Shown: piece after piece, positions 4,992-33,783 of the stretch | Numbering within the stretch: the first letter of the stretch is position 1 | How the letters are laid out: the number at the start of each line of letters is the position of its first letter | Origin: an uncultured Clostridia bacterium | Lineage (GTDB): Bacteria > Bacillota > Clostridia > TANB77 > CAG-508 | Assembly: GCA_947632035.1 (NCBI GenBank) | Contig: CANRNR010000018.1 | Coordinates: forward strand, 1-35,022 | Direction of reading: 5' to 3' | DNA: 35,022 nucleotides | Program-made: the position numbers and the translations under genes | The notes under the pieces: model-generated | Told to the model about the DNA's origin: nothing | Databases searched by the model: none | Seen by the model: only the letters and a program-made list of their open reading frames with translations

Positions 4992-5134
4992 TTATATAAA
5001 AAGGATTAAATATAATTATTTTATTTAATAAAAAATGCAAAAATCATATAATTAAATAAAAAACAAATTAAAGTAATTTATTAGAATTATAAAATAAAAA
5101 GACAAAATTGGGGCAAACGAAAGGAAATTTAACA

Positions 5135-7709
5135 ATGAAGATGTGTGTTGCCTCAATAGGAACCATTTTAGGAATTATAATGGGGCTATACTTAAAAAGT
5201 ATAGCCTTTTTTGTGTTTCTAATTTCTTTTATATTTCTGTTACTAATATTTACATGTAAAAAAGTATTTATAAAGAAAAACATAACTTTATGCTTAATAT
5301 TTCTTGTATGTATATTAATTTTTTATTTATATGTCGGTTTTTTAGAAAGTAAATATAACAGAATATATCAATATGATAATGATGAATTAAAGTTAGAAGC
5401 AATAGTAGTTACTGATGCAGAAAAACAGGAATATAAAGATGTATATACAATTAAGGTATTAAGTATTGAAGCTTTATCTAACAATTTACAAGAAAACAGC
5501 TTACAAGAAAAAAGCCCACAAGAAAAAAATGAGCGAATTGAAGAAGAAAATAAACTAACGTCCAAAGATAATAAGATATCTACAAAGTTACTATTATATA
5601 TAAAGAAAAATTCTAATAGTATAAACCAATTAAATTATGGTGATAAAGTTGAGATTACTGGCATATATGAAAAGCCAGAAGCGGCACGAAATGAAGGCGG
5701 ATTTGATTACAGTATATATTTAAAAGAGAAAGAAATTTCAGGTATTATAACTGCTAAAAGTGTAAAAGTAATAGAAAATAATAAAATAGGTTTAATTCAA
5801 AAGTGTAGTCATGATTTAAAGAAAAATTTAATAGAAAAAATAAGAGAAGTTCTACCAGAAAAAGCATCATCACTTTGTATTGGCTTAATATTAGGAGATA
5901 AATCATATATTTCAGAAGAAGTGCAAGATAGTTTTAGACAAAGCAATTTATCACATATGCTGGCTATTTCGGGTGCACATGTATCATATATATTGCTTGG
6001 AATTACTAACTTATTTCAATTCTTAAAAGTCCATAAAAGGTGGGGCAATGTTTTAGTTATATTATTTTTAGTCTTCTTTATGATGCTTGTAGGCTTTACG
6101 CCATCTGTTACAAGGGCATGCATAATGTGCATTTTAACCTTAGCCTCTAATATATTTTTTACAAAGCCTAATGTTTATACTAGCTTAGCGATTAGTAGCA
6201 TAATAATATTACTTATAAATCCATATTACTTATTAGATATTGGTTTTCAGCTTTCATTTGGTGGAACAATTGGAATTATTCTACTAATGAATAGAAAGTT
6301 AGAAAAAAAGAATATAGAAAGCGAAGACAAGAAAAATATTACTAATAAAGTAATAGAAGAAAATAAAGAATGGAAATCAAAAATACTTTCAAAAATTTTT
6401 TCATATATAAAACCAATTGCTCAGGTTTCAATATCTGCAAACTTAATAATTCTTCCAATTATGGTATATCATTTTAACACTATTTCATTAACTTTCATAA
6501 TTTCAAATTTATTAGCCTCACCAATACTAGCAGTTAGCTTAATAGGAAGCATGATATTTATATTTCTTCTACTCGTATTTAAACCACTAGCAGTACTTAT
6601 TTCGTTTATACTAAGTCCGATTTTAGAGCTTTTAACATTTATTGCAAAAATAACAGGTAAACTTCCATTTTCACAAATCCTAATTCCAACACCAAATATG
6701 TGGCAAATACTTTTATATTATTTATTTTTAATATTATATAAATCTAAAAATCAAATAAGCGAATTAAAAAATAAATTCTCAAATAAGTCAAAAATTAAGC
6801 CTATAATTACATTTATAAAACTTAAAAAAATAATTTTAATTTTAGTAATATTTTTGATTTTAGCACCATATTTTATTAAATTTCCAATGTCAAATTTAAG
6901 CCTTAAATTCATTGATGTAGGACAGGGAGACAGCACTTTAATAGAAACACCATCGAGGAAAACAATTTTGATAGACGGTGGCGGAAGTGAAGTAGGTAGT
7001 TTTGATGTTGGAGAAAAAACACTACTGCCATTTTTGTTAGATAATAATATAATGCAAATAGATTATATGCTCTTTTCACACCTAGATACAGACCATTGCG
7101 GGCGGGCTACTTACATTGTTAGAAAAAATAAAAGTAAAAAATATCATAATTTCTAAACAAGGAAAAAATAGTGAAAATCTTCAAAAATTAGTTAGTCTAG
7201 TAAAAAGATCAAAAACAAATGTAATCAAAGTAAAAGCTGGAGATAAAATTCAAATTGATAAAAATTCTTATTTCAAAATACTTTTTCCTAAAGAGGATTT
7301 AATTTCACAAAACATTTTAAATAATAACTCAATCGTAGCTAAATTTTGTTATCAAAAAAATCTAAAAACTAATCCCTTTACAATTCTTTTCACAGGCGAT
7401 ATTGAAGAAATTGCAGAAAATAAATTAGTAGAGCTTTATTTAGGAACGACAGAATTAAAAGCTGACATTTTAAAAGTTGCACATCATGGCTCCAAATCGT
7501 CATCAACTCAAAGTTTTATAGAAATGGTTAAGCCTAAGATTGCGTTGATAGGTGTAGGAGAAAATAATCATTTTGGACATCCAAATGAAGGTGTTTTAGA
7601 AAGGCTTAAAGCAATTGGTGCAAGAATTTATAGAACAGATAAAAGCGGAGAAATAATGCTTACTTTGGATTATAAAGGTAGGGTTAGAATTAAAGAATTT
7701 ATAGAATGA
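5135..7709 (+). pseudogene. comEC: ComEC/Rec2 competence DNA channel, frameshifted
   Basis: ComEC forms the inner-membrane channel for single-stranded DNA in natural transformation. Membrane helices begin near residue 5, followed by the soluble DUF4131-like region (about 60-220). The Competence domain (about 235-500) contains GLILGDKS and LSHMLAISGAHVSYI. The metallo-beta-lactamase domain starts at about 587 (IDVGQGDSTLIET). The frame breaks inside the metal-binding motif: SHLDTDHCG should be followed by GLLTLLEKIKVKN, which is found in the +1 frame. Removing one G from 7100-7102 restores a continuous protein to the stop at 7709, including the HHGSKSS motif. As it stands, the upstream frame ends at 7156. 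It is either a real mutation or a base-calling error. The start chosen is ATG 5135, preceded by AAAGGA; a TTG at 5108 has no better site. A terminator-like hairpin lies inside the first codons. Confidence 0.92.
5184..5212 (+). terminator. Intrinsic-terminator-like hairpin inside comEC
   Basis: GGCTATACTT (5184-5193) and AAGTATAGCC (5197-5206) form a perfect 10-bp stem with a 3-base loop. Six Ts follow (5207-5212). It lies about 17 codons after the comEC ATG, within the first membrane helix. Form and T-run are those of a strong Rho-independent terminator, which would attenuate comEC transcription. Confidence 0.7.
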
Positions 7710-15196: not shown

Positions 15197-17329
15197 ATGT
15201 CTAAAAATCTACTAATTACTGAAAAGCCATCTGTAGCTATGGAATTTGCAAAAGTACTAAATTGTGGTGGAAACAGAAAAGATGGTTATATAGAATCAGA
15301 CACTTGGATTATCACATGGTGTGTTGGACATTTAGTAACAATGAGTTACCCTGAAAAATATGATGAAAACTTAAAGTTTTGGAGATTAGACACACTACCA
15401 TTTATGCCAAAAGAGTATAAATATGAAGTAATACCAAATGTAGAAAAACAATTTAATATAGTAAAAAGCCTACTAATTAGAGAAGATGTAGGCTGTATTT
15501 ATGTTGCAACCGACTCTGGGCGAGAAGGAGAATACATTTATCGTTTAGTAGAAAATCAAATAGGAAAAGTAAATGCTACAAGAAAAAGAGTATGGATAGA
15601 TTCACAGACAGAAGAAGAAATAAAAAGAGGAATTAATGAAGCAAAAGATTTATCAGAATATGATAGCTTATGCAACTCTGCATACCTTAGAGCAAAAGAG
15701 GATTACCTTATAGGAATAAATTTTTCAAGGCTCCTTTCAATAATTTATGGAAGACGAATGGCAAAAGATATAGGAGAAGAAAAAATTTCAATTTCTGTTG
15801 GTAGAGTTATGACCTGTGTACTAGGAATGGTAGTACAAAGAGAAAGAGAGATTTTAAGCTTTAAAAAGACACCATATTATAAAATAATAGGAACATTCGG
15901 AAATGAAGGAAGTTCTTTTTCAGCAGAATGGAAGGTTACAGAAAAATCTTCACTTTTTGAATCAGCTAAACTATATAATGAAGCGGGCTTTAAAAGCGAA
16001 GAAGAGGCTAAAAAATTCATTGTATCACTTGAAAATAAAAAGGCAGTTATAACAGAAGTTAAGAAATCAAAAACAAAAGAAAATGCGCCACTTCTTTTTA
16101 ACTTAGCAGAAATTCAAAATGAAGCTACCAAGCGTTTTAAAATAAAACCAGATGAAACATTGGATATAATACAAAATTTGTATGAAAAAAAGTTAGTTAC
16201 ATACCCTAGAACAGATGCAAGAGTGCTATCTACTGCTGTTGCAAAAGTAATATCAAAGAATTTAAATGGACTTGCAAAAGGATTCCATGATGAAGAAATA
16301 CAAGGCTACCTTAAAAAAATGGCAGAAGAAAAATATTCAACAAATTTAGTGAAAACCAAGTATGTAAATGATAGTAAAATTACGGACCACTATGCAATAA
16401 TTCCAACAGGACAAGGCTTTGAAAATTATGATAGCTTGCCAGAGCTACATAAGCAAATGTACAGAGTAATAGTAAAAAGATTTTTAAGCATCTTTTTCCC
16501 ACCAGCAGAATATAGCAAAATATCAGTTACGATAGAAGTTGAAAATGACGATTTTAGGGAGCAATTTTCTGCAAGTGGTAAAGTTTGTGATAAAAAAGGA
16601 TTTTTGGAGATTACTAAAGGGGAAGAAAATAAAGATAATTCAAATAAAAAGCTAAGTATAAATAATCAAGAAAAATATGCAAGTAATATTGAAATGCAAA
16701 TAAATGAAAAGAGTATTGATAAAAAAGGTGAAAGCCAAGCAGATAAAAAGAGCATTGATAAAAATAACGAAAGCCAAGTAGATGAAAAAAGTATTGATAC
16801 CAATAATAAAAGTCAGGAAAATTTAATAGAAAATGCAAATGAAGAGAGCGAAGAAGAAAATAACTTAGACATTTTGAAGAAACTAAAAAAAGGTGAGCAA
16901 ATAGGTGTGATAAACTATGAGACCAAAACATCAGAAACATCTCCACCAACAAGATATAATTCAGGCTCAATGATACTTGCGATGGAAAATGCAGGAAAGC
17001 TAATTGAAGAAGAGGAGCTAAGAGAGCAAATAAAAGGAGCAGGAATAGGTACAAGTGCAACAAGAGCAGAAATAATAAAAAAGTTAGAAAGAATAGGCTA
17101 TATTGCAATAAATACAAAAACACAAATAATTACACCTACTGTAAAGGGAGAAAAAATTTATGATATAATTTTTCAGTCAATGCCTGACATGTTAAACCCA
17201 AAGCTTACAGCAAGTTGGGAAAAGGGCTTAGACATGGTTGCAAAAAAAGAAATTGAGCCAGATGAATTTATGAAAAAATTAGAGGCATATATTCATTCTA
17301 AAATAGATAAGTTAGTAGTTAGAAGGTAA
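15197..17329 (+). CDS. topB: DNA topoisomerase III
   Basis: This type IA topoisomerase passes single DNA strands, decatenating and resolving recombination intermediates. The Toprim domain (about 1-135) has LITEKPSVAMEFAKVL and the acidic motif ATDSGREGEYIYRL. The catalytic tyrosine is Tyr336 in TYPRTDARVLS. Conserved blocks further on include SKITDHYAIIPTG and GAGIGTSATRAEIIKKLERIGY. Length 710 aa is normal, but residues about 470-555 form a hydrophilic, disordered insert containing three 13-residue repeats. The ATG at 15197 follows AAAGGA. The patatin gene starts 28 bases after the stop and is probably co-transcribed. The assignment is secure; it could be a plasmid-type TopB, but nothing mobile surrounds it. 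Confidence 0.95.
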   Translation: MSKNLLITEKPSVAMEFAKVLNCGGNRKDGYIESDTWIITWCVGHLVTMSYPEKYDENLKFWRLDTLPFMPKEYKYEVIPNVEKQFNIVKSLLIREDVGCIYVATDSGREGEYIYRLVENQIGKVNATRKRVWIDSQTEEEIKRGINEAKDLSEYDSLCNSAYLRAKEDYLIGINFSRLLSIIYGRRMAKDIGEEKISISVGRVMTCVLGMVVQREREILSFKKTPYYKIIGTFGNEGSSFSAEWKVTEKSSLFESAKLYNEAGFKSEEEAKKFIVSLENKKAVITEVKKSKTKENAPLLFNLAEIQNEATKRFKIKPDETLDIIQNLYEKKLVTYPRTDARVLSTAVAKVISKNLNGLAKGFHDEEIQGYLKKMAEEKYSTNLVKTKYVNDSKITDHYAIIPTGQGFENYDSLPELHKQMYRVIVKRFLSIFFPPAEYSKISVTIEVENDDFREQFSASGKVCDKKGFLEITKGEENKDNSNKKLSINNQEKYASNIEMQINEKSIDKKGESQADKKSIDKNNESQVDEKSIDTNNKSQENLIENANEESEEENNLDILKKLKKGEQIGVINYETKTSETSPPTRYNSGSMILAMENAGKLIEEEELREQIKGAGIGTSATRAEIIKKLERIGYIAINTKTQIITPTVKGEKIYDIIFQSMPDMLNPKLTASWEKGLDMVAKKEIEPDEFMKKLEAYIHSKIDKLVVRR
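16706..16822 (+). repeat. Three 39-bp tandem repeats within topB
   Basis: The units are at 16706-16744, 16745-16783 and 16784-16822. They encode the 13-residue units EKSIDKKGESQAD, KKSIDKNNESQVD and EKSIDTNNKSQEN (residues 504-542). Units are similar but not identical, lie in frame and sit in the acidic linker before the C-terminal conserved blocks. Confidence 0.85.
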
Positions 17330-17357
17330 TATAAAAATAAACAAAGGAGAAGAAATA

Positions 17358-18197
17358 ATGAAAATAGGTTTAGCACTATCAGGTGGCGGAGTAAAAGGAG
17401 CTGCCCACATAGGCGTTTTAAAAGCATTAGAAGAAAATAATATTAAAGCATCTGTAATAGCAGGTACTAGTATAGGAAGCATAGTATCAGCTTTATATGC
17501 AATGGACTACACATCGGATGAAATGTTAAAATTATTTCAGTATTTTTCTAAAAGCATTTTAAAAGCAGACCCAAGATATTTATTTTCAAATATAAGAACA
17601 ACGAAAAGTATTTTAGGAAATGGTCTTATTTCAGGTGAAGCAATAGAAGAAATTATGAATGAGTGTGCAAGACTAAAAGGCTATAAATACATTAAAGATA
17701 TTCAAATGCCAATTTCAATACCAACAGTGGACATCAAAACAAGAAAAAAATATGTATTTACTAACCAAAAAATAGATAAGGACTGCTATATTTCAAACAT
17801 AGAAATAGGAAAAGCAGTAAGAGCAAGTTGCAGTTACCCCGGGCTTTTTGCACCACTAGAATATGAAGACAAGATATTTGTAGATGGTGGTGTACTTAAC
17901 AATATTCCAGAAGAAGAATTATCTTTATTAGGTGCAGAAAAAATTTTAACAGTAAGATTCCCTGCAAAAGATGGCGAAGACCCTAAAAATGCAATTGACC
18001 TATTATTTAGGTGTGTAGATATTATATTTGATGATAGAGATACTTGTAAATTAAAGAGTAGCAATTATATTCTTGATATAGCGCTAAATTCATCTACTGT
18101 GTTTGATGTTAAAAAGATTGATTTTTGCTATGCTAAGGGTTACAAGATAGCAAATCAAAATATGGAAAAGATTAAAGAAAAGTTAGAAATAATGTAA
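17358..18197 (+). CDS. Patatin-like phospholipase
   Basis: A lipid acyl hydrolase with a Ser-Asp dyad. The oxyanion motif SGGGVKG covers residues 8-14. The nucleophile elbow GTSIG at 36-40 makes Ser38 the nucleophile. The DGG motif starts at Asp176 in FVDGGVLNNIP. There is no signal peptide, so it is likely cytoplasmic or peripheral to the membrane, like the RssA/YchK group. Length 279 aa fits that group. The start ATG follows AAAGGAG and lies 28 bases after topB, suggesting one operon. A terminator hairpin occurs about 80 bases after the stop, within the first 120-bp direct repeat. The substrate is not predictable. Confidence 0.9.
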   Translation: MKIGLALSGGGVKGAAHIGVLKALEENNIKASVIAGTSIGSIVSALYAMDYTSDEMLKLFQYFSKSILKADPRYLFSNIRTTKSILGNGLISGEAIEEIMNECARLKGYKYIKDIQMPISIPTVDIKTRKKYVFTNQKIDKDCYISNIEIGKAVRASCSYPGLFAPLEYEDKIFVDGGVLNNIPEEELSLLGAEKILTVRFPAKDGEDPKNAIDLLFRCVDIIFDDRDTCKLKSSNYILDIALNSSTVFDVKKIDFCYAKGYKIANQNMEKIKEKLEIM

Positions 18198-18263
18198 AAA
18201 TGTGAACAAGTTAAGGCAATTAGAAATAGAAGTAATAATTGTAAAGTATGAAAGAATTTACAC

Positions 18264-18383
18264 AACACAAGTGTAAAAGGAGAGAACTTTGAAATTTCAG
18301 AGTCTCTTCTTTTTTTAAAAAAATATAAGAACAAAATTTCGCAAAAACTATTGAAAAGGATTTAGAAATATGATATAAATTTA
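18264..18383 (+). repeat. 120-bp direct repeat, copy 1 (terminator plus promoter)
   Basis: This block matches 20036-20153 with only scattered differences. It begins with AACACAAGTGTAAAAGGAG and includes a hairpin around 18281-18307 (AGAG...CTCT with an inner TGAA/TTCA stem) followed by T7. It ends with a promoter, TTGAAA (18351-18356), 17 bp, TATAAA (18374-18379). It therefore ends the topB-patatin transcript and starts the BRO-type gene. Confidence 0.88.
18351..18379 (+). promoter_or_regulatory. Promoter of the truncated BRO-type gene
   Basis: TTGAAA (18351-18356), 17-bp spacer, TATAAA (18374-18379). The same promoter occurs in the second repeat copy upstream of dinD. Confidence 0.6.
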
Positions 18384-18447
18384 AGAAATAAAAAAGAATT
18401 TGAGTTGCTTGGAATTTCCGGACAAACTAAGAAAGAGAGGTAAAAAC

Positions 18448-18873
18448 ATGGAACAAGATAATCAATTAAAAATATTTGAAGATAAAAAAATTAGAGCAAA
18501 ATGGGATGAGGAACAAGAAAAATGGTATTTTTCAATAGTAGATGTTGTGGCTGTTTTAACAGAGAATGATTATCAAAAAGCAAGGACTTATTGGAAAGTG
18601 TTAAAAAGCAGACTATTAACGGAGGGAAATGAAACGGTTACAAATTGTAACCAGTTGAAAATGATGGCATATGATGGGAAATTAAGATTAACTGATGTGG
18701 CTAATATAGAGCAAATTTTAAGATTAATTCAATCAATTCCTTCTAAGAAAGCGGAGCCTTTTAAATTGTGGTTAGCACAAGTTGGAAAAGAAAGAATAAA
18801 TGAAGCATATGACCCAGAAATTGCAATAAATAGAGCATTGGATATATACAGGAAAAAAGGTTATATCAGATAA
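18448..18873 (+). pseudogene. BRO/Bro-N phage-antirepressor-type protein, C-terminally truncated
   Basis: The 141 residues match the N-terminal half of prophage and chromosomal Bro-N proteins: KIRAKWDEEQEKWYFSIVDV, then VTNCNQLKMMAYDGKLRLTDV and LIQSIPSKKAEPFKLWLAQV. Full-length relatives are about 270-290 aa and continue after the KKGY motif with a second helical region. Here the frame stops three codons after GY. The following bases do not resume the missing half in any frame, so the end was lost by deletion or rearrangement rather than a simple frameshift. A short N-terminal protein could still fold and bind DNA. The start ATG 18448 follows AGAGAGG. It lies between the repeat copy 1 promoter and the SUMF1 gene. 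Family secure; function unknown. Confidence 0.82.
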
Positions 18874-18919
18874 AAACGCTAAAGAGATAAGGAAACTAAA
18901 ATAATTTACATAAATATAC

Positions 18920-18948
18920 TTGAAAAAATCAAGAAACGGTGTTATATT
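18920..18948 (+). promoter_or_regulatory. Promoter of the SUMF1-fold gene
   Basis: TTGAAA (18920-18925), 17-bp spacer, TATATT (18943-18948). A small hairpin ATGGC-AAGA-GCCAT (18958-18971) would lie at the very 5' end of the transcript. Confidence 0.55.
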
Positions 18949-19012
18949 ATTAACATAATGGCAAGAGCCATATAGAAACCGATTAAAATATTAGCAGGAG
19001 GAGGCAAAAGAC

Positions 19013-19966
19013 ATGAAAGATCGGTATAAAAAATTTGTGTATGAAGATGAAAGAGGTACATCTATTGAGGTTAATGCCTCAAAAGGAAGAACTTTGAAAG
19101 TCTTAGAAGGAGCAGACGGAGAGTTAATTATCAGAGAGATGAACGATGATAAAGCTAAATTTATTCCCAAAATCTATTTAAACTATGCTGATCCACCAAT
19201 TTTAGATGGATACAAGCATGTTTGTGGAGAATGGAACAATGGCTTTGTAATTGAAAGAATCTCTGATGGAAGTCAGTTCGTGTGGATTCCTGTAGGAAGC
19301 CTAGATTCTGATGGAACACTTGACGGCGAGCATTTTTCTGAAAAATTTGGCAGAAGAAACTATCGGAATTATAATTTTTCGGATAGCGGATACCATGAAC
19401 CTTTAGAATGTGAACTGCTTGAGCAACTTGAAAGTGTTAAAAAATACGGGGGATTTTATATTTCTCGTTATAACATTTCCAAAAATTCAGAAGGACAGCC
19501 ACAGTCTGTAAAAGGAGTTAAGCCATGTAGATCCATCAATTTTAACGATACTAAGGAAGCGGCAGCTACTATCGAAAACAATGAAGCAGTTAAGAGTCAT
19601 CTAACTTTTGGGGCAGAATATGATTCGGTATTAGCATGGTTTATCAAATCAGGGGCAAAAACACTTAAAGAAATTGCAGAAGGTTCTAGCCAATGTGGTA
19701 ATTATCGGTATTCTGCGATAGAAATAGTTAAAACAGGAAGTCATGAAGAATGGCGTACTAATAACATTTATGATCTTGCAGGTAATGTGCGTGAATTGAC
19801 ACAAGAAAAGTTTGGTAGTTTGTATTATGTTATCCGTGGTGGTAATTGCTACAGTCATGGTTTCATTTTTCCTGTTGCCTATCGTAGTTGTTACGATCCT
19901 GAGCGTATCAATCCTAATGACGACTATAGCGACCTTAGTTTTCGTGCTGTGCTTTGCATAAAGTAG
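19013..19966 (+). CDS. SUMF1/FGE-fold protein, candidate DGR variable protein
   Basis: The 317-aa product has the formylglycine-generating-enzyme (SUMF1) fold, a C-type-lectin-like scaffold. Landmarks are FVWIPVG (about 97-103), KKYGGFYISRYNIS, LTFGAEYDSVLAWF, NNIYDLAGNVRELTQE (about 250-265), VIRGGN and the final SFRAVLCIK. There is no signal peptide or membrane helix. True FGE oxidises a sulfatase cysteine, but gut Firmicutes also use this fold for ligand-binding variable proteins of DGRs. The last part, RGGNCYSHGFIFPVAYR onward, has conserved residues separated by positions that look randomised, and nearly all codons there end in T or C. The start ATG follows the very strong AGGAGGAGG. It lies between two 120-bp repeats, downstream of a broken BRO-type gene and upstream of dinD. 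Fold secure; DGR role inferred. Confidence 0.85.
   Translation: MKDRYKKFVYEDERGTSIEVNASKGRTLKVLEGADGELIIREMNDDKAKFIPKIYLNYADPPILDGYKHVCGEWNNGFVIERISDGSQFVWIPVGSLDSDGTLDGEHFSEKFGRRNYRNYNFSDSGYHEPLECELLEQLESVKKYGGFYISRYNISKNSEGQPQSVKGVKPCRSINFNDTKEAAATIENNEAVKSHLTFGAEYDSVLAWFIKSGAKTLKEIAEGSSQCGNYRYSAIEIVKTGSHEEWRTNNIYDLAGNVRELTQEKFGSLYYVIRGGNCYSHGFIFPVAYRSCYDPERINPNDDYSDLSFRAVLCIK
19823..19948 (+). other. Candidate DGR variable region (VR)
   Basis: Of 42 consecutive codons, 41 end in T or C; the exception is GAG at 19901. All Arg codons here are CGT and all Gly codons GGT, whereas the first two thirds of the gene use AGA and GGA freely. In DGRs, AAY codons of a template are mutated at A, leaving NNY codons, which gives exactly this pattern. 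The template repeat is not in the window. Confidence 0.55.
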
Positions 19967-19977
19967 TACTAACTACT
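19962..19977 (+). other. Hairpin at the SUMF1 stop codon (DGR cruciform position)
   Basis: AGTAGT (19962-19967), loop ACTA, ACTACT (19972-19977): a perfect 6-bp stem with a 4-base loop overlapping the TAG stop (19964-19966). No T-run follows, so it is not a terminator. DGR targets often carry a short stem with a tetraloop just after the variable region. Confidence 0.5.
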
Positions 19978-20035
19978 GTAAACTCTTATGTTTGATTTGT
20001 AAGCTCACGAAAATAACTGCACAAATTTGTTTGTA

Positions 20036-20153
20036 AACACAAGTGTAAAAGGAGAGAACTTTGAAATTTCAGAGTCTCTCTTTTTTTGAAAAAATATAAG
20101 AACAAAAATTCGTAAAAACTATTGAAAGGGATTTAGAAATATGATATAAATTT
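20036..20153 (+). repeat. 120-bp direct repeat, copy 2 (terminator plus promoter)
   Basis: It is near-identical to 18264-18383, offset about 1772 bp. It holds the same hairpin with T7 and the same promoter, TTGAAA (20122-20127), 17 bp, TATAAA (20145-20150), here serving dinD. Similarity stops just after the promoter, so the downstream genes differ. Confidence 0.88.
20122..20150 (+). promoter_or_regulatory. Promoter of dinD
   Basis: TTGAAA (20122-20127), 17-bp spacer, TATAAA (20145-20150), in repeat copy 2. No LexA-type GAAC-N4-GTTC box is visible nearby, so SOS control is not supported by the sequence. Confidence 0.6.
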
Positions 20154-20197
20154 ATTAAATAAATTAAAAACTAGAATGAAAGGAATGGTGAACATTT

Positions 20198-21046
20198 ATG
20201 GGAAATGATTTAGTAAATAAAACAGAAAAAGATTTTGAAAGTATCAAACGCGTAGATGAAAACGGGACTGAATTTTGGTATGCTAGAGAACTAATGGTAA
20301 TGCTTGAATATAGTAAATGGGGAAATTTTATTAAAGTAATTGATAAAGCAAAAGAATCCTGTAAAAACAGTAATATCAATATATTGGATCATTTTGCCGA
20401 CGTCGGCAAAATGATAATAGTAGCAAAAGGGGCAGAAAGAGAAATTGAAGATTATAAATTAACTAGATATGCATGTTATCTTATAGCACAAAACGGAGAT
20501 AGTAGAAAAAAAGCAATAGCTCTTGCCCAAACTTATTTTGCAGTACAAACTAGAAAACAAGAAATATCAAGACAAGAATATGAAAGTTTAAGTGAAGATG
20601 AAAAAAGATTATACACTAGAAAAAATGTAAAAGATAAAAATAAATATTTATTTGATACAGCAAAGCTAGCAGGTGTAAAAAATTATGGAAAATTTAATAA
20701 TTATGGTTATAGAGGATTATATAACGGAGAAACAGCAAAAGACATTGCAAATAGAAAAGGTATATCTGAAAAAGAAGATATATTAGACTATATGAGTAGT
20801 ACAGAACTTGCAGCAAATTTATTTAGAATTACGCAAACTGACGAAGTCTTAAAAAATAAAAATATTAATAATGAAGACGATGCTTGCAAAACTCATCATA
20901 ATGTAGGACAAGCTGTTAGACAAACTATAAAAAGAATAGGTGGTACTATGCCAGAAGACTTACCAACTCCGAGCAAAAGTGCAAAAAAGATTGAAGAAGA
21001 AAAGCAGAAACAATTAAAATCTAATACGAAAAAAAGTCTAAAATAA
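20198..21046 (+). CDS. dinD: DinD-like DNA-damage-inducible protein D
   Basis: The 282-aa product matches the DinD family, whose E. coli member modulates RecA. The N-terminal BRO-like domain (about 1-115) has [47 protein letters not shown] and [15 protein letters not shown]. The C-terminal part contains [19 protein letters not shown] and a helical region with [26 protein letters not shown], and ends in a Lys-rich tail. Length is normal. The start ATG 20198 follows AAAGGAATGG. Codons 64-73 carry a perfect 28-bp palindrome with C-ending codons (GCC GAC GTC GGC) unlike the rest of the gene. It lies at the right edge of the accessory island, before murA. Family secure; regulation unknown. Confidence 0.9.
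20388..20415. repeat. Perfect 28-bp palindrome inside dinD
   Basis: The left half is ATCATTTTGCCGAC (20388-20401) and the right half GTCGGCAAAATGAT (20402-20415). They are exact reverse complements without a spacer. The core CCGACGTCGG is GC-rich in an AT-rich gene. It encodes [10 protein letters not shown], which fits the family consensus. Confidence 0.95.
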
Positions 21047-21118
21047 ATTCATTACATTCACCTTTTATGGAAAGCAAACATAATATATAGCAAAATAAAA
21101 ACAGAAAGGGTGAAACAA

Positions 21119-22375
21119 ATGGCAAGCTACATAATAGAAGGAGGAAGAAAATTAGAAGGAGAAGTAACAATATCAGGCTCTAAAAATGCCTCTTTGCCAA
21201 TTATAGCAACAAGTATTTTAAATGCAGGAACCACAAAATTATATAACATTCCAAACATTCATGATACACAAATTACCCTAGAAATTTTAAAATATTTAGG
21301 ATGTAAAATAAAAAAGTCTCATGGAAAAATAGAAATAAATAGTAAAAATATAAATAAAAAAGAGATTCCAGAACATTTAATGAATCAAATGCGTTCAACT
21401 GTTATACTTGCGGGAGCAATAATAGGAAGATTTAAAGAAGCAAAATTTTCATATCCTGGTGGATGTGACATTGGAGCAAGGCCTATAGACCTACATTTGA
21501 ACGCTTTTCAAAAATTAGGAATAAATATTAGCGAAAACTCTGGATTTATTACATGCAAATGTGATAAAATAATAGGTGCAAATATTAACCTCGATTTTCC
21601 AAGTGTGGGAGCAACCGAAAATATTATTCTAGCAAGCATTTATACAGAAGGCACAACACAAATTACAAATGCAGCAATGGAGCCAGAAATAGTGGATTTG
21701 GCGAAGTGCTTAAATAAGATGGGTGCAAAAATAGAGGGTGCTGGAACAAATGAAATAAAAATTACAGGGGTTCAAAAATTAAAAGATATAAGTTATAGCG
21801 TAATGGAGGACAGAATAGAAGCGGGTACTTTACTTTGTGCAGGTGCAATTACAGGTGGAAATATAAGTTTTCCATATAGAAATCCAGAGCATTTAACACC
21901 AATTATTCACAAATTAGAAGAAACAGGATGTAATATTAAAATAGCAAACAAAAAAATATATCTTCAAGCACCAAAAAAGCTAAAAGCAGTTGATATAAAA
22001 ACACTTCCATACCCGGGTTTCCCAACAGATATGCAGTCTATATTTGCAAGTGTTCTAACAATTGCAAAAGGTACATCTGTAATAATTGAAAACATTTTTG
22101 AAAATCGTTATCGTTATACTGCAGAGCTTAAAAAAATGGGAGCAAAAATTACTATTGAAGGGAAAACTGCAGTTATTAAAGGAGTAAGAAGGCTATCAGG
22201 TGCAAAGGTAAAATCTACAGATTTAAGAGGTGGAGCATGTTTAGTATTAGCAGGTTTAGCAGCCAGAGGAATAACTGTAGTAACAGATATAGAGCACATT
22301 TTAAGAGGTTATGAAGGATTAGAAAAGAAATTAAATGCATTAGGTGCTAAAATTATTAAAGAAGGAGAAAAATAG
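21119..22375 (+). CDS. murA: UDP-N-acetylglucosamine 1-carboxyvinyltransferase
   Basis: MurA transfers enolpyruvate from PEP to UDP-GlcNAc, the first committed step of peptidoglycan synthesis and the fosfomycin target. It has 418 aa, the usual length, with the EPT fold. The N-terminal block is SGSKNASLPIIATSIL. The catalytic cysteine is Cys116 in PGGCDIGARPIDLHL, so a fosfomycin-sensitive type is expected. Later blocks are PYPGFPTDMQS and ENRYRYTAELKKMGA. ATG 21119 is chosen over GTG 21110 because AAAGGGTG lies 8 bases upstream. The stop directly abuts the ftsQ start, so the two are translationally linked. It opens the division operon murA-ftsQ-DUF881-DUF881-sbp. No strong promoter could be read upstream. 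Confidence 0.97.
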   Translation: MASYIIEGGRKLEGEVTISGSKNASLPIIATSILNAGTTKLYNIPNIHDTQITLEILKYLGCKIKKSHGKIEINSKNINKKEIPEHLMNQMRSTVILAGAIIGRFKEAKFSYPGGCDIGARPIDLHLNAFQKLGINISENSGFITCKCDKIIGANINLDFPSVGATENIILASIYTEGTTQITNAAMEPEIVDLAKCLNKMGAKIEGAGTNEIKITGVQKLKDISYSVMEDRIEAGTLLCAGAITGGNISFPYRNPEHLTPIIHKLEETGCNIKIANKKIYLQAPKKLKAVDIKTLPYPGFPTDMQSIFASVLTIAKGTSVIIENIFENRYRYTAELKKMGAKITIEGKTAVIKGVRRLSGAKVKSTDLRGGACLVLAGLAARGITVVTDIEHILRGYEGLEKKLNALGAKIIKEGEK

Positions 22376-23629
22376 ATGGTTAAAAAGCAAAAGAAGAAAA
22401 AAGAAAATACAAAAGATAATTCCTCTTTTGATTTAGATAATGAAATCATAATTGGAATTACACCATTAGAAGATAACAAGCCTTTAAAAAATAAAAAAAG
22501 TACTACTAATGCAAGAAACAAAAAGATAAAAGATAGAGATTCAATAAATAAAAAAGCAAAAGATAAAAGGCAAAAAACTAAAAAGTTAGCTGATAAGAAA
22601 AAGAAAGGCAATACAAAAAAAATTGAAGATGATGACGAAAAGATACCAGATGAGCTAGCTATAGAAATACAAGGAATAAAAATAAAAGATGAAAAAAATA
22701 GCAAAAATATTAAAAACAAAAAAGTAAATAGAAAAGTAAAAAAGAATAGACAGGAAGACAACAAAAAAGATAATAAAAAAAATAATAAAAAATCAAATAA
22801 AACAGTAAACAAAAGAAAAGAAGAAAAGTTACAAAGAGCAGATCAATTAGTAGAAAATGATAAAAATGTTAAAGAAGCAGATATAGCAAAACAAAAAAGA
22901 ATGTCTACTTTTCATATAGTTAAATGGACAAGCTTAGTAATTATTATAATAGCAACAGGTATATACTTTATGCTATCACCATTTTTTAATATAAAAGAAA
23001 TAAATGTACAAGGGATAGAAAGACTTACAGCAGAAGAAGTAATAAGTTTATCAAGGATAAATTTAGATGAAAACACTTTTAAAATTCAAGCTAGTGAAGT
23101 TCAAAAGTTAATTAAACAAAATGCATATGTTGATAATGTTTATGTAAAAAGGAGATTACCAGACAAAATTGAAATACAGGTAATAGAGAGAAAACCTACA
23201 TTCATGATTTTATTTGGAAATGCATATGTATATTTAAATAACCAAGGATATTTATTAGAAGTAGCAAAAGAGCCACTTGAAATTCCTGCAATAGTAGGAT
23301 TCGTAACTCCAGAAAATGAAATACATGAAGGAAATAGATTATGTAGTGAAGATTTACAAAGATTGGATCAAGTTTTGCAAATAATGAAATCTGCTGAAAG
23401 TAATGGAATAAAAGACCTTATTACTAAAATAAATATACATGATAAGCAAGACTATATATTAGAACTAAAAAGTGAGAAAAAGACAGTTCATATTGGAAAT
23501 ACTACAAATTTAAGTACAAAAATGTTGTATGTGGATAGCATTTTAAATGAAAATAAAGGTGTAGAAGGAGAAATCTTTGTTAATACAGATTTAAATAATA
23601 AGGGAGCAATCTTTAGAAAGAAAATTTAA
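22376..23629 (+). CDS. ftsQ: Cell-division protein FtsQ/DivIB with long Lys-rich N-terminus
   Basis: FtsQ/DivIB is a bitopic divisome protein that holds FtsB/FtsL at the septum. Residues 1-178 are cytoplasmic, low-complexity and extremely Lys/Asn/Asp-rich, much longer than in model species. A membrane helix follows at about 181-202. The POTRA domain (about 203-275) shows SPFFNIKEINVQGIERLTAEEV and NAYVDNVYVKRRLPDKIEIQV. The FtsQ domain runs to about 410. The start ATG abuts the murA stop, and the GAAGGAG serving it lies in the last murA codons. Total length 417 aa. The context, murA before and DUF881 genes after, supports the call. The basic tail could bind nucleic acid or acidic partners; that is inference. 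Confidence 0.93.
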   Translation: MVKKQKKKKENTKDNSSFDLDNEIIIGITPLEDNKPLKNKKSTTNARNKKIKDRDSINKKAKDKRQKTKKLADKKKKGNTKKIEDDDEKIPDELAIEIQGIKIKDEKNSKNIKNKKVNRKVKKNRQEDNKKDNKKNNKKSNKTVNKRKEEKLQRADQLVENDKNVKEADIAKQKRMSTFHIVKWTSLVIIIIATGIYFMLSPFFNIKEINVQGIERLTAEEVISLSRINLDENTFKIQASEVQKLIKQNAYVDNVYVKRRLPDKIEIQVIERKPTFMILFGNAYVYLNNQGYLLEVAKEPLEIPAIVGFVTPENEIHEGNRLCSEDLQRLDQVLQIMKSAESNGIKDLITKINIHDKQDYILELKSEKKTVHIGNTTNLSTKMLYVDSILNENKGVEGEIFVNTDLNNKGAIFRKKI

Positions 23630-28517: not shown

Positions 28518-28949
28518 ATGAAATTAAAACGGTTTTTAACTATCATTGCATTACTCATTCTTACAATGATTATGCTAACAGGGTGTGGGGAAAAGGACAC
28601 AAATCCTAAGGTATTAATGAAATTTGATAGCCAAACAATAACCTTAAAATCAGACCAAAAAGGTTATGCCTATCTTGAAATTAATGTTAAAGATGGAGAT
28701 TATGAAGTTACTTTTGAAGAACGCTTCAAAGTCTCTAAAAATAAAACATTAACTATAGGGATAGAAGATATTGAAAAAGATTTCTTTAGTAAAAATGCAC
28801 AAATATGTAATGTAGCAGTAGTTAAAGCTACTAGCGTAGTGTATGAATTGGCTATAATTTGGTTTTACTTTATACCTGCAATTATCCTTATTGCTTTTAT
28901 GGTGGTTATTATTGTGCAAAAAGATAAAAACCGAAGAAACAACACCTAA
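28518..28949 (+). CDS. Small lipoprotein, tandem copy 1
   Basis: The product has 143 aa with a lipoprotein signal peptide: basic MKLKRF, a hydrophobic run and lipobox LTGC (Cys23 lipidated). An extracytoplasmic domain of about 80 residues follows, with conserved KFDSQTITL, YLEINVKDGDYE, RFKVSKNKTLTIGIEDI and FFSKNAQICNV. A C-terminal membrane helix (about 108-133) precedes a basic tail. Both ends would thus be membrane-attached. I do not recognise the family. The stop codon lies inside the left arm of its terminator. Compared with copies 2 and 3, the region after NAQICNV has diverged (ATSVVYELAIIWFYF instead of TTKE...IG). The unit lies between ftsZ and spoIIGA. Function unknown. Confidence 0.85.
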   Translation: MKLKRFLTIIALLILTMIMLTGCGEKDTNPKVLMKFDSQTITLKSDQKGYAYLEINVKDGDYEVTFEERFKVSKNKTLTIGIEDIEKDFFSKNAQICNVAVVKATSVVYELAIIWFYFIPAIILIAFMVVIIVQKDKNRRNNT

Positions 28950-29328: not shown

Positions 29329-29766
29329 ATGAAATTAAAACGGTTTTTAACTATCATTGCATTACTCATTCTTACAATGATTATGCTAACAGGGTGTATG
29401 GAAATGGAAACAGACGCTAAGGGATTGCTGAAATTTGATGACAAGAAAATAAGTATAACCCCAGACAAATACAATTATGTCTATCTTGAAATTGATGTTA
29501 AAGATGGAGATCTTGAAGATACTTTTACAAAACGCTTCGAAGTCTCTAAAAATAAAACATTAACTATAGGGCTAGAAGATATTGCAAAAGATTTCTTTAG
29601 TGAAAATGCGCAAATATGTAATGCAAAAATTGTTAAAACTACTAAAGAAATAATAGGAACAATGATAATTGTGATTGTGCTATTTATATTTATTATAATT
29701 ATGCTGATTCTTCAATTCTTCGATTCTTTTAGGCGTACTTCATACAGAGTATGTATCTATTATTAG
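29329..29766 (+). CDS. Small lipoprotein, tandem copy 2
   Basis: The product has 145 aa. The first 23 residues, ending in lipobox LTGC, are identical to copy 1. The extracytoplasmic domain is related: LLKFDDKKISI, YLEIDVKDGD, DTFTKRFEVSKNKTLTIGLE, FFSENAQICNAKIV. A C-terminal membrane helix (about 107-130) is followed by a longer tail ending RRTSYRVCIYY, not seen in the other copies. The start follows AAAGGAGG. It lies in a unit 811 bp after copy 1 that repeats promoter, gene, terminator and downstream block. Near-identity of the 5' end with divergence in the middle suggests gene conversion or selection on the signal part. Function unknown. Confidence 0.85.
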   Translation: MKLKRFLTIIALLILTMIMLTGCMEMETDAKGLLKFDDKKISITPDKYNYVYLEIDVKDGDLEDTFTKRFEVSKNKTLTIGLEDIAKDFFSENAQICNAKIVKTTKEIIGTMIIVIVLFIFIIIMLILQFFDSFRRTSYRVCIYY

Positions 29767-30172: not shown

Positions 30173-30574
30173 ATGAAATTAAAACGGTTTTTAACTATCG
30201 TTGCATTACTCATTCTTACAATGATTATGCTAACAGGGTGTCAGGAAGCAGAAATAGACGCTAAGGTATTGCTGAAATTTGATAACCAGCAAATAAGCAT
30301 AAACACAGACAAATGCAATTATGTCTATCTCGAAATTGATGTTAAAGATGGAGACTATGAAGATACTTTTACAAAACGCTTCAAAGTCTCTAAAAATAAA
30401 ACATTAACTATAGGGCTAGAAGATATTGCAGAAAATTTCTTTAGTGAAAATGCACAAATATGTAATGTAAAAGTTGTTGAAACTACTAAAGAAATGATTG
30501 GAGCAGTTATAATTGTGATTGCGATAGTGACAATTTTTAGTCTTGTACTATTCATACTGTTTGAAAGACCATAA
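30173..30574 (+). CDS. Small lipoprotein, tandem copy 3
   Basis: The product has 133 aa. The signal peptide and lipobox LTGC match copies 1 and 2 except one residue (TIVAL). The domain reads LLKFDNQQISI, YVYLEIDVKDGDYEDTFTKR, KVSKNKTLTIGLEDI and NAQICNVKVVETT, closest to copy 2. A C-terminal membrane helix (about 108-129) ends the protein with a short ERP tail. It is the last tandem unit; its downstream block holds the promoter that probably drives spoIIGA. The start follows AAAGGAGG. Function unknown. Confidence 0.85.
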   Translation: MKLKRFLTIVALLILTMIMLTGCQEAEIDAKVLLKFDNQQISINTDKCNYVYLEIDVKDGDYEDTFTKRFKVSKNKTLTIGLEDIAENFFSENAQICNVKVVETTKEMIGAVIIVIAIVTIFSLVLFILFERP

Positions 30575-33375: not shown

Positions 33376-33783
33376 TCATTTTTCTTTAATTGCATGACAA
33401 ACTGCTAATACAACTCCTAACAAAACTAAAAATGCAATCACAAATAGCATTGTACCCATAAATTCTATAGTAGTTTCTACTACTTTTACATTACATATTT
33501 GTGCATCTTTAGTGAAAAAATCAGGTACGATATCTTCTATCCCTATAGTTAATGTTTGATTTTTAGAGACTGCGAAGCGCTTTACATAAGTATCTTCAAA
33601 ATCTCCATCTTTAACATCAATTTCAAGATAGACATAACCGCGTTGGTCTGAATTCAGTTTTATTGTTTGAATATCAAATTTTAATGATACGTTAGCAGTT
33701 GATGGTATTTCTACACATCCTGTTAGCATAGTCATTGCAATAATAAGTGATGCAATGAGAGTTAAAAACCGTTTTAATTTCAT
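33376..33783 (-). CDS. Small lipoprotein, inverted copy 4
   Basis: The product has 135 aa. MKLKRFLTLIASLIIAMTML then TGC shows the same signal peptide and lipobox as copies 1-3 with several changes. The domain has SLKFDIQTIKL, YVYLEIDVKDGDFEDTYVKR, AVSKNQTLTIGIEDI and KDAQICNVKVVETT, then a C-terminal membrane helix (about 106-128) and a basic tail AIKEK. It is the most diverged member. It stands on the opposite strand after sigG, in the place where ylmA/ylmC normally begins. Its promoter and leader hairpin are conserved with the others, and it shares a terminator with sigG. Function unknown. Confidence 0.85.
   Translation of the reverse strand: MKLKRFLTLIASLIIAMTMLTGCVEIPSTANVSLKFDIQTIKLNSDQRGYVYLEIDVKDGDFEDTYVKRFAVSKNQTLTIGIEDIVPDFFTKDAQICNVKVVETTIEFMGTMLFVIAFLVLLGVVLAVCHAIKEK

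Follow-up and report, generated by a model that had tools for sequence, protein, structure and literature searches.

A probable remote target gene of a diversity-generating retroelement in an uncultured Clostridia bacterium, and a matching template on murA-inserted elements of its relatives

We analysed a stretch of DNA from an uncultured Clostridia bacterium that spans the whole of contig C18 (35,022 bp), referred to here as the window. The draft genome to which it belongs is 1.69 Mb long, comprises 43 contigs and is 94% complete. A small island flanked by core genes carries a gene for a variable protein (VP). The gene order is topoisomerase III, patatin, Bro-N, VP (19013-19966), dinD-like, murA and ftsQ, with the names of topoisomerase III, murA and ftsQ given from sequence. 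The features discussed below, including those defined by comparison with a diversity-generating retroelement (DGR) found on a mobile element in relatives, are as follows.

18199..18276, + strand: 25-codon frame resembling the C-terminus of the element's MqsA-like antitoxin (81.7% over 71 bp, E 6e-11 against L106)
18264..18392, + strand: additional VP tail preceding the Bro-N gene (alignment; two VP-tail copies in the assembly)
18400..18873, + strand: Bro-N domain gene of the same island (PF02498)
18920..19012, + strand: upstream region in common with the element's VP gene, with a TGGC-(4)-GCCA palindrome (alignment)
19013..19966, + strand: VP gene, 317 aa, of a DGR target family related to FGE-sulfatase/SUMF1 (ORF and homologues)
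19828..19947, + strand: variable region (VR), aligned to the element's template; start and end approximate
19901..19915, + strand: insertion of five codons that the template lacks (GAG CGT ATC AAT CCT), placed by hand
19940..19966, + strand: invariant 3' end of the gene, the place of the IMH in known DGRs (comparison with G008)
19962..19977, + strand: hairpin spanning the stop codon, with a stem of 6 bp and a loop of 4 bases (6/6 pairs)
20036..20163, + strand: VP tail and upstream region of the dinD-like gene, a direct repeat with 18264-18392 (122/129 identical)
20051..20087, + strand: terminator-like hairpin closing the conserved VP unit (fold -14.9 kcal/mol)
20198..21046, + strand: dinD-like gene, the 3' member of the island (NF008573, E 6e-110)
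21455..21466, + strand: uninterrupted place in murA, equivalent to the insertion site of the element in relatives (sequence comparison)

Elsewhere in the window, four short paralogous lipoprotein-like ORFs have nearly identical N-termini (28518-28949, 29329-29766, 30173-30574 and 33376-33783). A ComEC-like reading frame, named from sequence, apparently falls into two ORFs that overlap and lie in different frames (5108-7156 and 7116-7709).

The 3' end of the VP gene is built almost entirely of codons ending in T or C (NNY). The initial annotation had drawn attention to this run, and our count agrees with it: all codons at 19823-19948 except GAG at 19901 are NNY (41 of 42). Among 32 other main ORFs of the window, picked by hand from the ORF list, 4163 of 9656 codons (43%) are of this type, and the richest 42-codon window contains 32. 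At a 43% background, the probability of at least 41 NNY codons in 42 is 2.5e-14 per site and 2.5e-10 over all codons. Arginine is CGT in all four cases within the stretch and glycine is GGT in all three. The annotation had further stated that the first two thirds of the gene use AGA and GGA. In the part that precedes the run, usage is mixed rather than pure (Arg: AGA 7, CGG 3, CGT 3; Gly: GGA 13, GGT 5, GGC 3, GGG 3). The stem-loop that it placed over the stop codon is present, with all six pairs formed.

Homology connects the VP to SUMF1-type proteins. PF03781 matched 19 of the 22 family members scanned, but it did not match the window protein itself, and the SUMF1-type assignment made from the sequence alone is thus supported through the homologues. 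A profile search reached a SUMF2 chain only at E 0.03. The protein is without two Trp residues conserved in the family (SQCGNYR and VRELT stand in their places), and its predicted structure was too poor for use (mean pLDDT 40). We searched 144 genomes, comprising the window's own and those of its genus, family and order. VP relatives, many of them distant, were found in 99 genomes (protein search, E <= 0.001), and RVT_1 reverse transcriptases (RTs) of all kinds, not of DGRs alone, were found in 92. Both were present in 71 genomes, the VP only in 28, an RT only in 21 and neither in 24. A scan of one genome per species yielded 24 VP loci. A tblastn search of IMG/VR, which reaches close relatives only, returned no VP relative, and phages gave no match. 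The window's own genome encodes two more distant VP relatives, L082 2410-3726 (C4) and L083 2661-3992 (C10), which have hydrophobic N-termini and a weaker NNY bias (at best 28 and 29 of 42 codons).

Complete DGR cassettes are present in relatives of the window's genome. In G028 (on the same contig as L113), a VP relative has an Avd gene, an RT gene and a template repeat downstream of it, in that order. The VP variable region differs from its own template at 24 positions, 22 of which are template adenines. The same cassette was found in L103, L104, L105, L106, L108 and L114, with VP, Avd, RT and the template and variable repeats together. Across the seven elements, the VP differs from its own template at 14-23 adenines each and at 0, 0, 1, 1, 2, 4 and 5 non-adenine positions (of 84-89). 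The L106 cassette matched PF22296 (Avd) and PF00078 (RT); its Avd scored 78.6 bits, which is below the NCBIfam cut-off of 80 and above the Pfam cut-off. On plasmids, a search with the element RT gave 26 records, all below 60% identity. In L104 7995-8915, the VR repeats one already mutated 15-base unit exactly, a change in VR length by duplication, in the region of the window's own 15-base insertion. A repeat scanner reported further pairs, which we leave uninterpreted, in L107, L109, L124, L069, L075 and L070 (besides the clear DGR pair of L070).

We looked for the template in 23 genomes, namely the holders of this VP plus the window's own. Ten of them carry the template at 96-100% identity, and in two of these ten (G153 and G162) the adjacent RT is only partly present. 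The other 13 have no copy of the family template at >= 96%, and the target is thus often without machinery, although three of the 13 (G155, G163 and G164) have the VP gene at a contig end. We then looked at the 14 AAY codons of the template in 17 relatives that were picked as free of 3' indels, with the window and G008 excluded. Codon positions 1 and 2 carry 0.98-1.92 bits of variation, and position 3 carries 0-0.52 bits except in two codons (0.79 and 1.14). A codon-bias or low-complexity artefact would explain the NNY run without a DGR. Nothing beyond the missing RT in this assembly speaks for such an artefact, and the family-wide variability of the template AAY codons and the match between VR and template make it exceedingly improbable.

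Alignment of the window VR to the G028 template gave 85 identities. Changes were found at 16 of 36 template adenines and at 4 of 69 other bases (Fisher p 4e-6), an adenine-directed but imperfect match to a template carried by relatives. A codon-wise alignment made by hand gave 18/36 adenines and 5/66 others. The templates of the six other elements differ from the window VR at 4-8 of 68-69 non-adenine positions. The insertion at 19901-19915 has a counterpart of equal length in that region of L104.

The initial annotation had placed the RT and template of the presumed DGR elsewhere. We found neither in the own assembly, a 94% complete draft, in which the RVT_1 profile and the element RT returned no RT. 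Besides the VR itself, the VR repeat has only 14-29-base matches in the own genome (E >= 0.2), and the G028 template matches the VR alone. Within the window, on both strands, the best other template-like place has 19 disallowed mismatches over 126 bases (6 in the first 63) and lies in A-rich sequence near 22.7 kb.

Several candidate sources were tried and rejected. G008 has its own RT and template (contig C17), but this template does not fit the window VR. The template on G002:C33 does not match the VP upstream of murA in G002, and L116, L118, L119, L102 and L109 did not match those parts of their own genomes that resemble a template or carry an RT. The own-genome template of L110 was rejected as the exact source of the L110 VR because that VR fits the G028 template better (2 versus 5 non-adenine mismatches); the RT in this genome is only partly present.

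These results indicate that 19013-19966 is very probably a SUMF1/C-type-lectin-like remote (orphan) DGR target, with a 3' segment that derives from the near-identical template of relatives through adenine-directed errors. The annotated reading of a remote or relict DGR target is supported by the homologues in complete cassettes of relatives and by the concentration of mismatches at adenines of the cassette template. Membership in the class of target genes is well supported; a complete DGR in the own genome is not.

The cassettes of relatives reside on an element inserted in murA. We scanned the domains of this carrier on L106, plus one gene of L114. Upstream of the cassette are a helix-turn-helix gene and a MobV relaxase gene (NF041497 in L106), joined in L106 by a DDE transposase gene. 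Downstream is a DUF6076 gene, and the last gene codes for a 558-aa large serine recombinase (Recombinase, PF07508, in L106). Between these two, L106 has a DUF4258 gene and an MqsA-like antitoxin gene, and L114 has a Bro-N/DinD-like gene. In six genomes (G028, G002, G149, G157, G162 and G165), the left end of the element is joined by a murA fragment that ends near residue 121. In L106 and L114, where both ends lie on one contig and the large serine recombinase was seen, the remainder of murA follows the recombinase and provides the second junction. The carrier thus combines a relaxase, a site-specific recombinase and a defined insertion site, the same in six genomes, as integrative mobilizable elements do. 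Judged from its gene content, it is apparently mobilizable. The DGR element was noted at a single murA site in L106, L114, L113 (L071), L079, L120 and L124. A second full-length murA-like gene, 46-49% identical to the window's murA, is present in 10 of the 11 genomes checked; none is listed for G028. DGRs and remote targets are already known, and to our knowledge a murA-inserted carrier with many orphan copies is new. We met no DGR within a murA-inserted element in the literature searched, a scope that excluded most subscription papers and all preprints.

We examined how much of the window is homologous to this element. Homology to L106, L113 and L114 begins at 18920 and stops at 20087 (L106), 20091 (L113) or 19982 (L114). 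The homologous unit, 18920 to ~20087, consists of the upstream region, the gene and the terminator. Isolated VP units also occur in other contexts, in L107 (three in tandem), L110, L111, L115 and L116. We dropped a retrocopy origin of the orphan units because they contain the upstream region. Apart from one stretch of ~1.05 kb, L111 and L115 have nothing in common at E <= 1e-10. L117 and L118 also include short pieces of the element's left end, and L109 and L102 resemble elements from which a deletion removed Avd, RT and template. In the window, the Bro-N gene is related to a gene on the L114 element (50% aa, 68.5% nt). The second VP tail is perhaps the remnant of another VP gene. Because this tail and the antitoxin-like frame lie just upstream, the island itself may be the remnant of a related element. 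The direct repeat formed by the two tails precedes two genes of the Bro-N family.

These arrangements bear on the last step in the history of the gene, that is, on how its VR came to be written. One alternative is that the VP was diversified in cis on the element, after which either a deletion stranded it or it moved elsewhere as a unit of promoter, gene and terminator; in this case the VR would be a frozen relict. The deletion-like L109 and L102, the VP units that stand alone in several contexts (e.g. L111/L115), the antitoxin-like remnant and element-like Bro-N gene of the window, and the RT that was not found in the own assembly are all in keeping with this origin. A closely related genome argues against it.

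G008 belongs to the same genus and has the same gene in the same island and the same place (on a contig that is also L101). The isolate name of this metagenome-assembled genome, Lapin-022, suggests a rabbit. Differences between the window and G008 number 53/1461 in 16500-17999, 6/900 in 18000-18899 and 4/113 in the leader. Within the VP gene they rise from 10/288 in 19013-19300 to 88/519 in 19301-19822 and 35/108 bases plus 15 gap columns in 19823-19945. They fall to 2/1088 in 20061-21149 and 5/450 in 21150-21599, and number 35/900 in 21600-22499. Third positions differ at 1/283 sites in the dinD-like gene and 1/158 in the Bro-N gene, versus 25/422 in murA and 18/280 in patatin. The low divergence of the island and these third-position counts suggest that the island was recently exchanged and that the gene has changed since, the VR most of all. 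Family membership, the template match with its adenine bias and this localized recent divergence were all observed. The initial annotation had named as evidence against itself a lack of RT and template in the complete genome together with no excess variation in the segment. RT and template are missing here from a 94% complete draft only, and excess variation is present, judged by the one sister genome G008. A comparison of 18000-21600 with L069 gave 6/900 differences before the VP gene and 7/1653 after it; in the genes that flank this stretch the two species differ by 3-4%.

The VR of G008 occupies the same gene and place within a little-diverged island and is very different in sequence. One VR of the pair, if not both, must therefore have changed in situ. 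We consider the cis-then-relict origin rather unlikely.

The VR is hypervariable among relatives, yet further patches upstream of it also diverge between the window and G008. Identity is 86% in 19301-19350, 74% in 19351-19432, 69% in 19490-19560 and 77% in both 19661-19762 and 19763-19822. The stretches between them (19121-19300, 19433-19489 and 19561-19660) are 97-99% identical. The template cannot account for the upstream patches, which point to likely mosaic recombination between VP genes. Such recombination may have brought in the VR as well. Also against a simple DGR account are the two missing Trp residues and the differences between the VRs of the window and G008 at 13 of 66 non-adenine positions. 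In a second alternative for the last step, homologous recombination imported both the VR and the patches from other VP genes, and the DGR was active only in the donors. The patchwork itself, in which 19351-19432, 19490-19560, 19661-19822 and the VR are 63-77% identical to G008 amid nearly identical stretches, speaks for such an import. We searched 26 other VPs for a donor of the divergent segments of both genes and found no close patch match (best 71-88%). The 3' boundary of the divergent segment also falls where DGR homing would stop. Import of the VR in this way is, in our judgement, likewise rather unlikely.

The position of this boundary was compared across genomes. The template match of the window VR ends at the 3' end of the gene, and that end is like G008: the two are identical over 19946-20060 (0/115 differ), and 6/21 bases differ from the G028 element VP. 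The stop-codon hairpin is complete in the window and G008, and 22 other sequences form 0-5 of its 6 pairs on the top strand. On the bottom strand, most sequences keep the hairpin via G-T pairs (88.9% of cells paired in 9 distinct rows). Covariation in these 9 rows was not significant.

We next compared silent sites. Third positions of the window VR equal those of the element template in 32 of 35 cases, and those of the gene body equal the element VP in 180 of 258 cases (p 0.0037 before correction for 28 genes and not significant after it; the NNY constraint also raises chance third-position identity). Among the 28 genes in this test, from which L117 was left out, p was below 0.02 in four (the window, L118, L119 and the G148 orphan) and not in the other 24, many of which are close to the element throughout. 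G008, L116, L121, G065 and G078 are diverged yet lack the signal. G148 carries both the element and a diverged orphan, and the frame of this orphan has an internal stop. The nearness of the window VR to the template at silent sites counts against a VR inherited with the whole gene from a cis-diversified ancestor. It is suggestive only, and would favour writing from the template.

Taken with the in situ difference from G008, these observations lead us to prefer writing of the VR by mutagenic retrohoming in trans, a tentative choice to which we give somewhat less than an even chance. A murA-type element would first enter the lineage. Its RT and template would then act in trans on the resident VP gene and rewrite its VR segment as far as the invariant 3' end. 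The element would finally be lost, or be left unassembled, and the resident VP gene would stay. We infer that the protein might bind a changing ligand.

The wider form of this model is an itinerant DGR, in which a mobilizable element, its single template almost invariant, travels between gut Clostridia via murA and rewrites resident orphans in trans. This is conceivable, though we lean slightly away from it as a general account. If it is true, hosts would retain a diversified receptor-like gene without its mutator, and several species would have one template as a common diversification programme. Trans rewriting would also mean that a mobile mutator can diversify genes outside its own cargo. 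The window and G008 differ little outside the gene and strongly within it, a contrast that offers a ready natural comparison.

We compared the locus to known systems. The DGR of Bordetella phage BPP-1 comprises Mtd, Avd, bRT, TR, IMH and a hairpin. The system described here resembles it in the adenine-directed differences between template and variable repeats, the Avd and RT genes and, as far as the window and G008 show, the invariant 3' end and the hairpin near the VR. BPP-1 diversifies a phage tail protein in a cis organisation, whereas the window gene is a chromosomal orphan that codes for a SUMF1-like protein. Integrative mobilizable elements with a large serine recombinase are a known kind. 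The carrier is like them in its MobV relaxase and in the large serine recombinase that adjoins its right end, and it differs in its DGR cassette cargo and its murA insertion site. Remote targets have also been described in a genome with Tery locus tags, presumably Trichodesmium. That study reports remote DGR targets with localized hypervariability in metagenomic reads; the RTs lie in the same genome, and no mobile carrier is described in the passages considered (PMC8867640). For the window gene, no RT was found in its own assembly.

In Thiohalocapsa PB-PSB1, remote targets without an RT of their own match a template elsewhere in the same genome, and trans diversification was inferred for DGRs 4 and 5 from perfect non-adenine matches (PMC10907252). 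The window gene is similar in that it lacks its own RT and has a VR that matches a distant template. It differs in that a search of its own assembly did not find this template, which other genomes carry on an element inserted in murA, and in that its non-adenine match is less than perfect (4 of 69 differ). A census of DGRs in genomes and metagenomes found them to be commoner in Firmicutes and gut samples and proposed early carriage on mobile elements (PMC8144416). The census seeks variable repeats beside the RT and states that remote targets would be missed (PMC8144416); the window gene is very probably a remote target of this kind.
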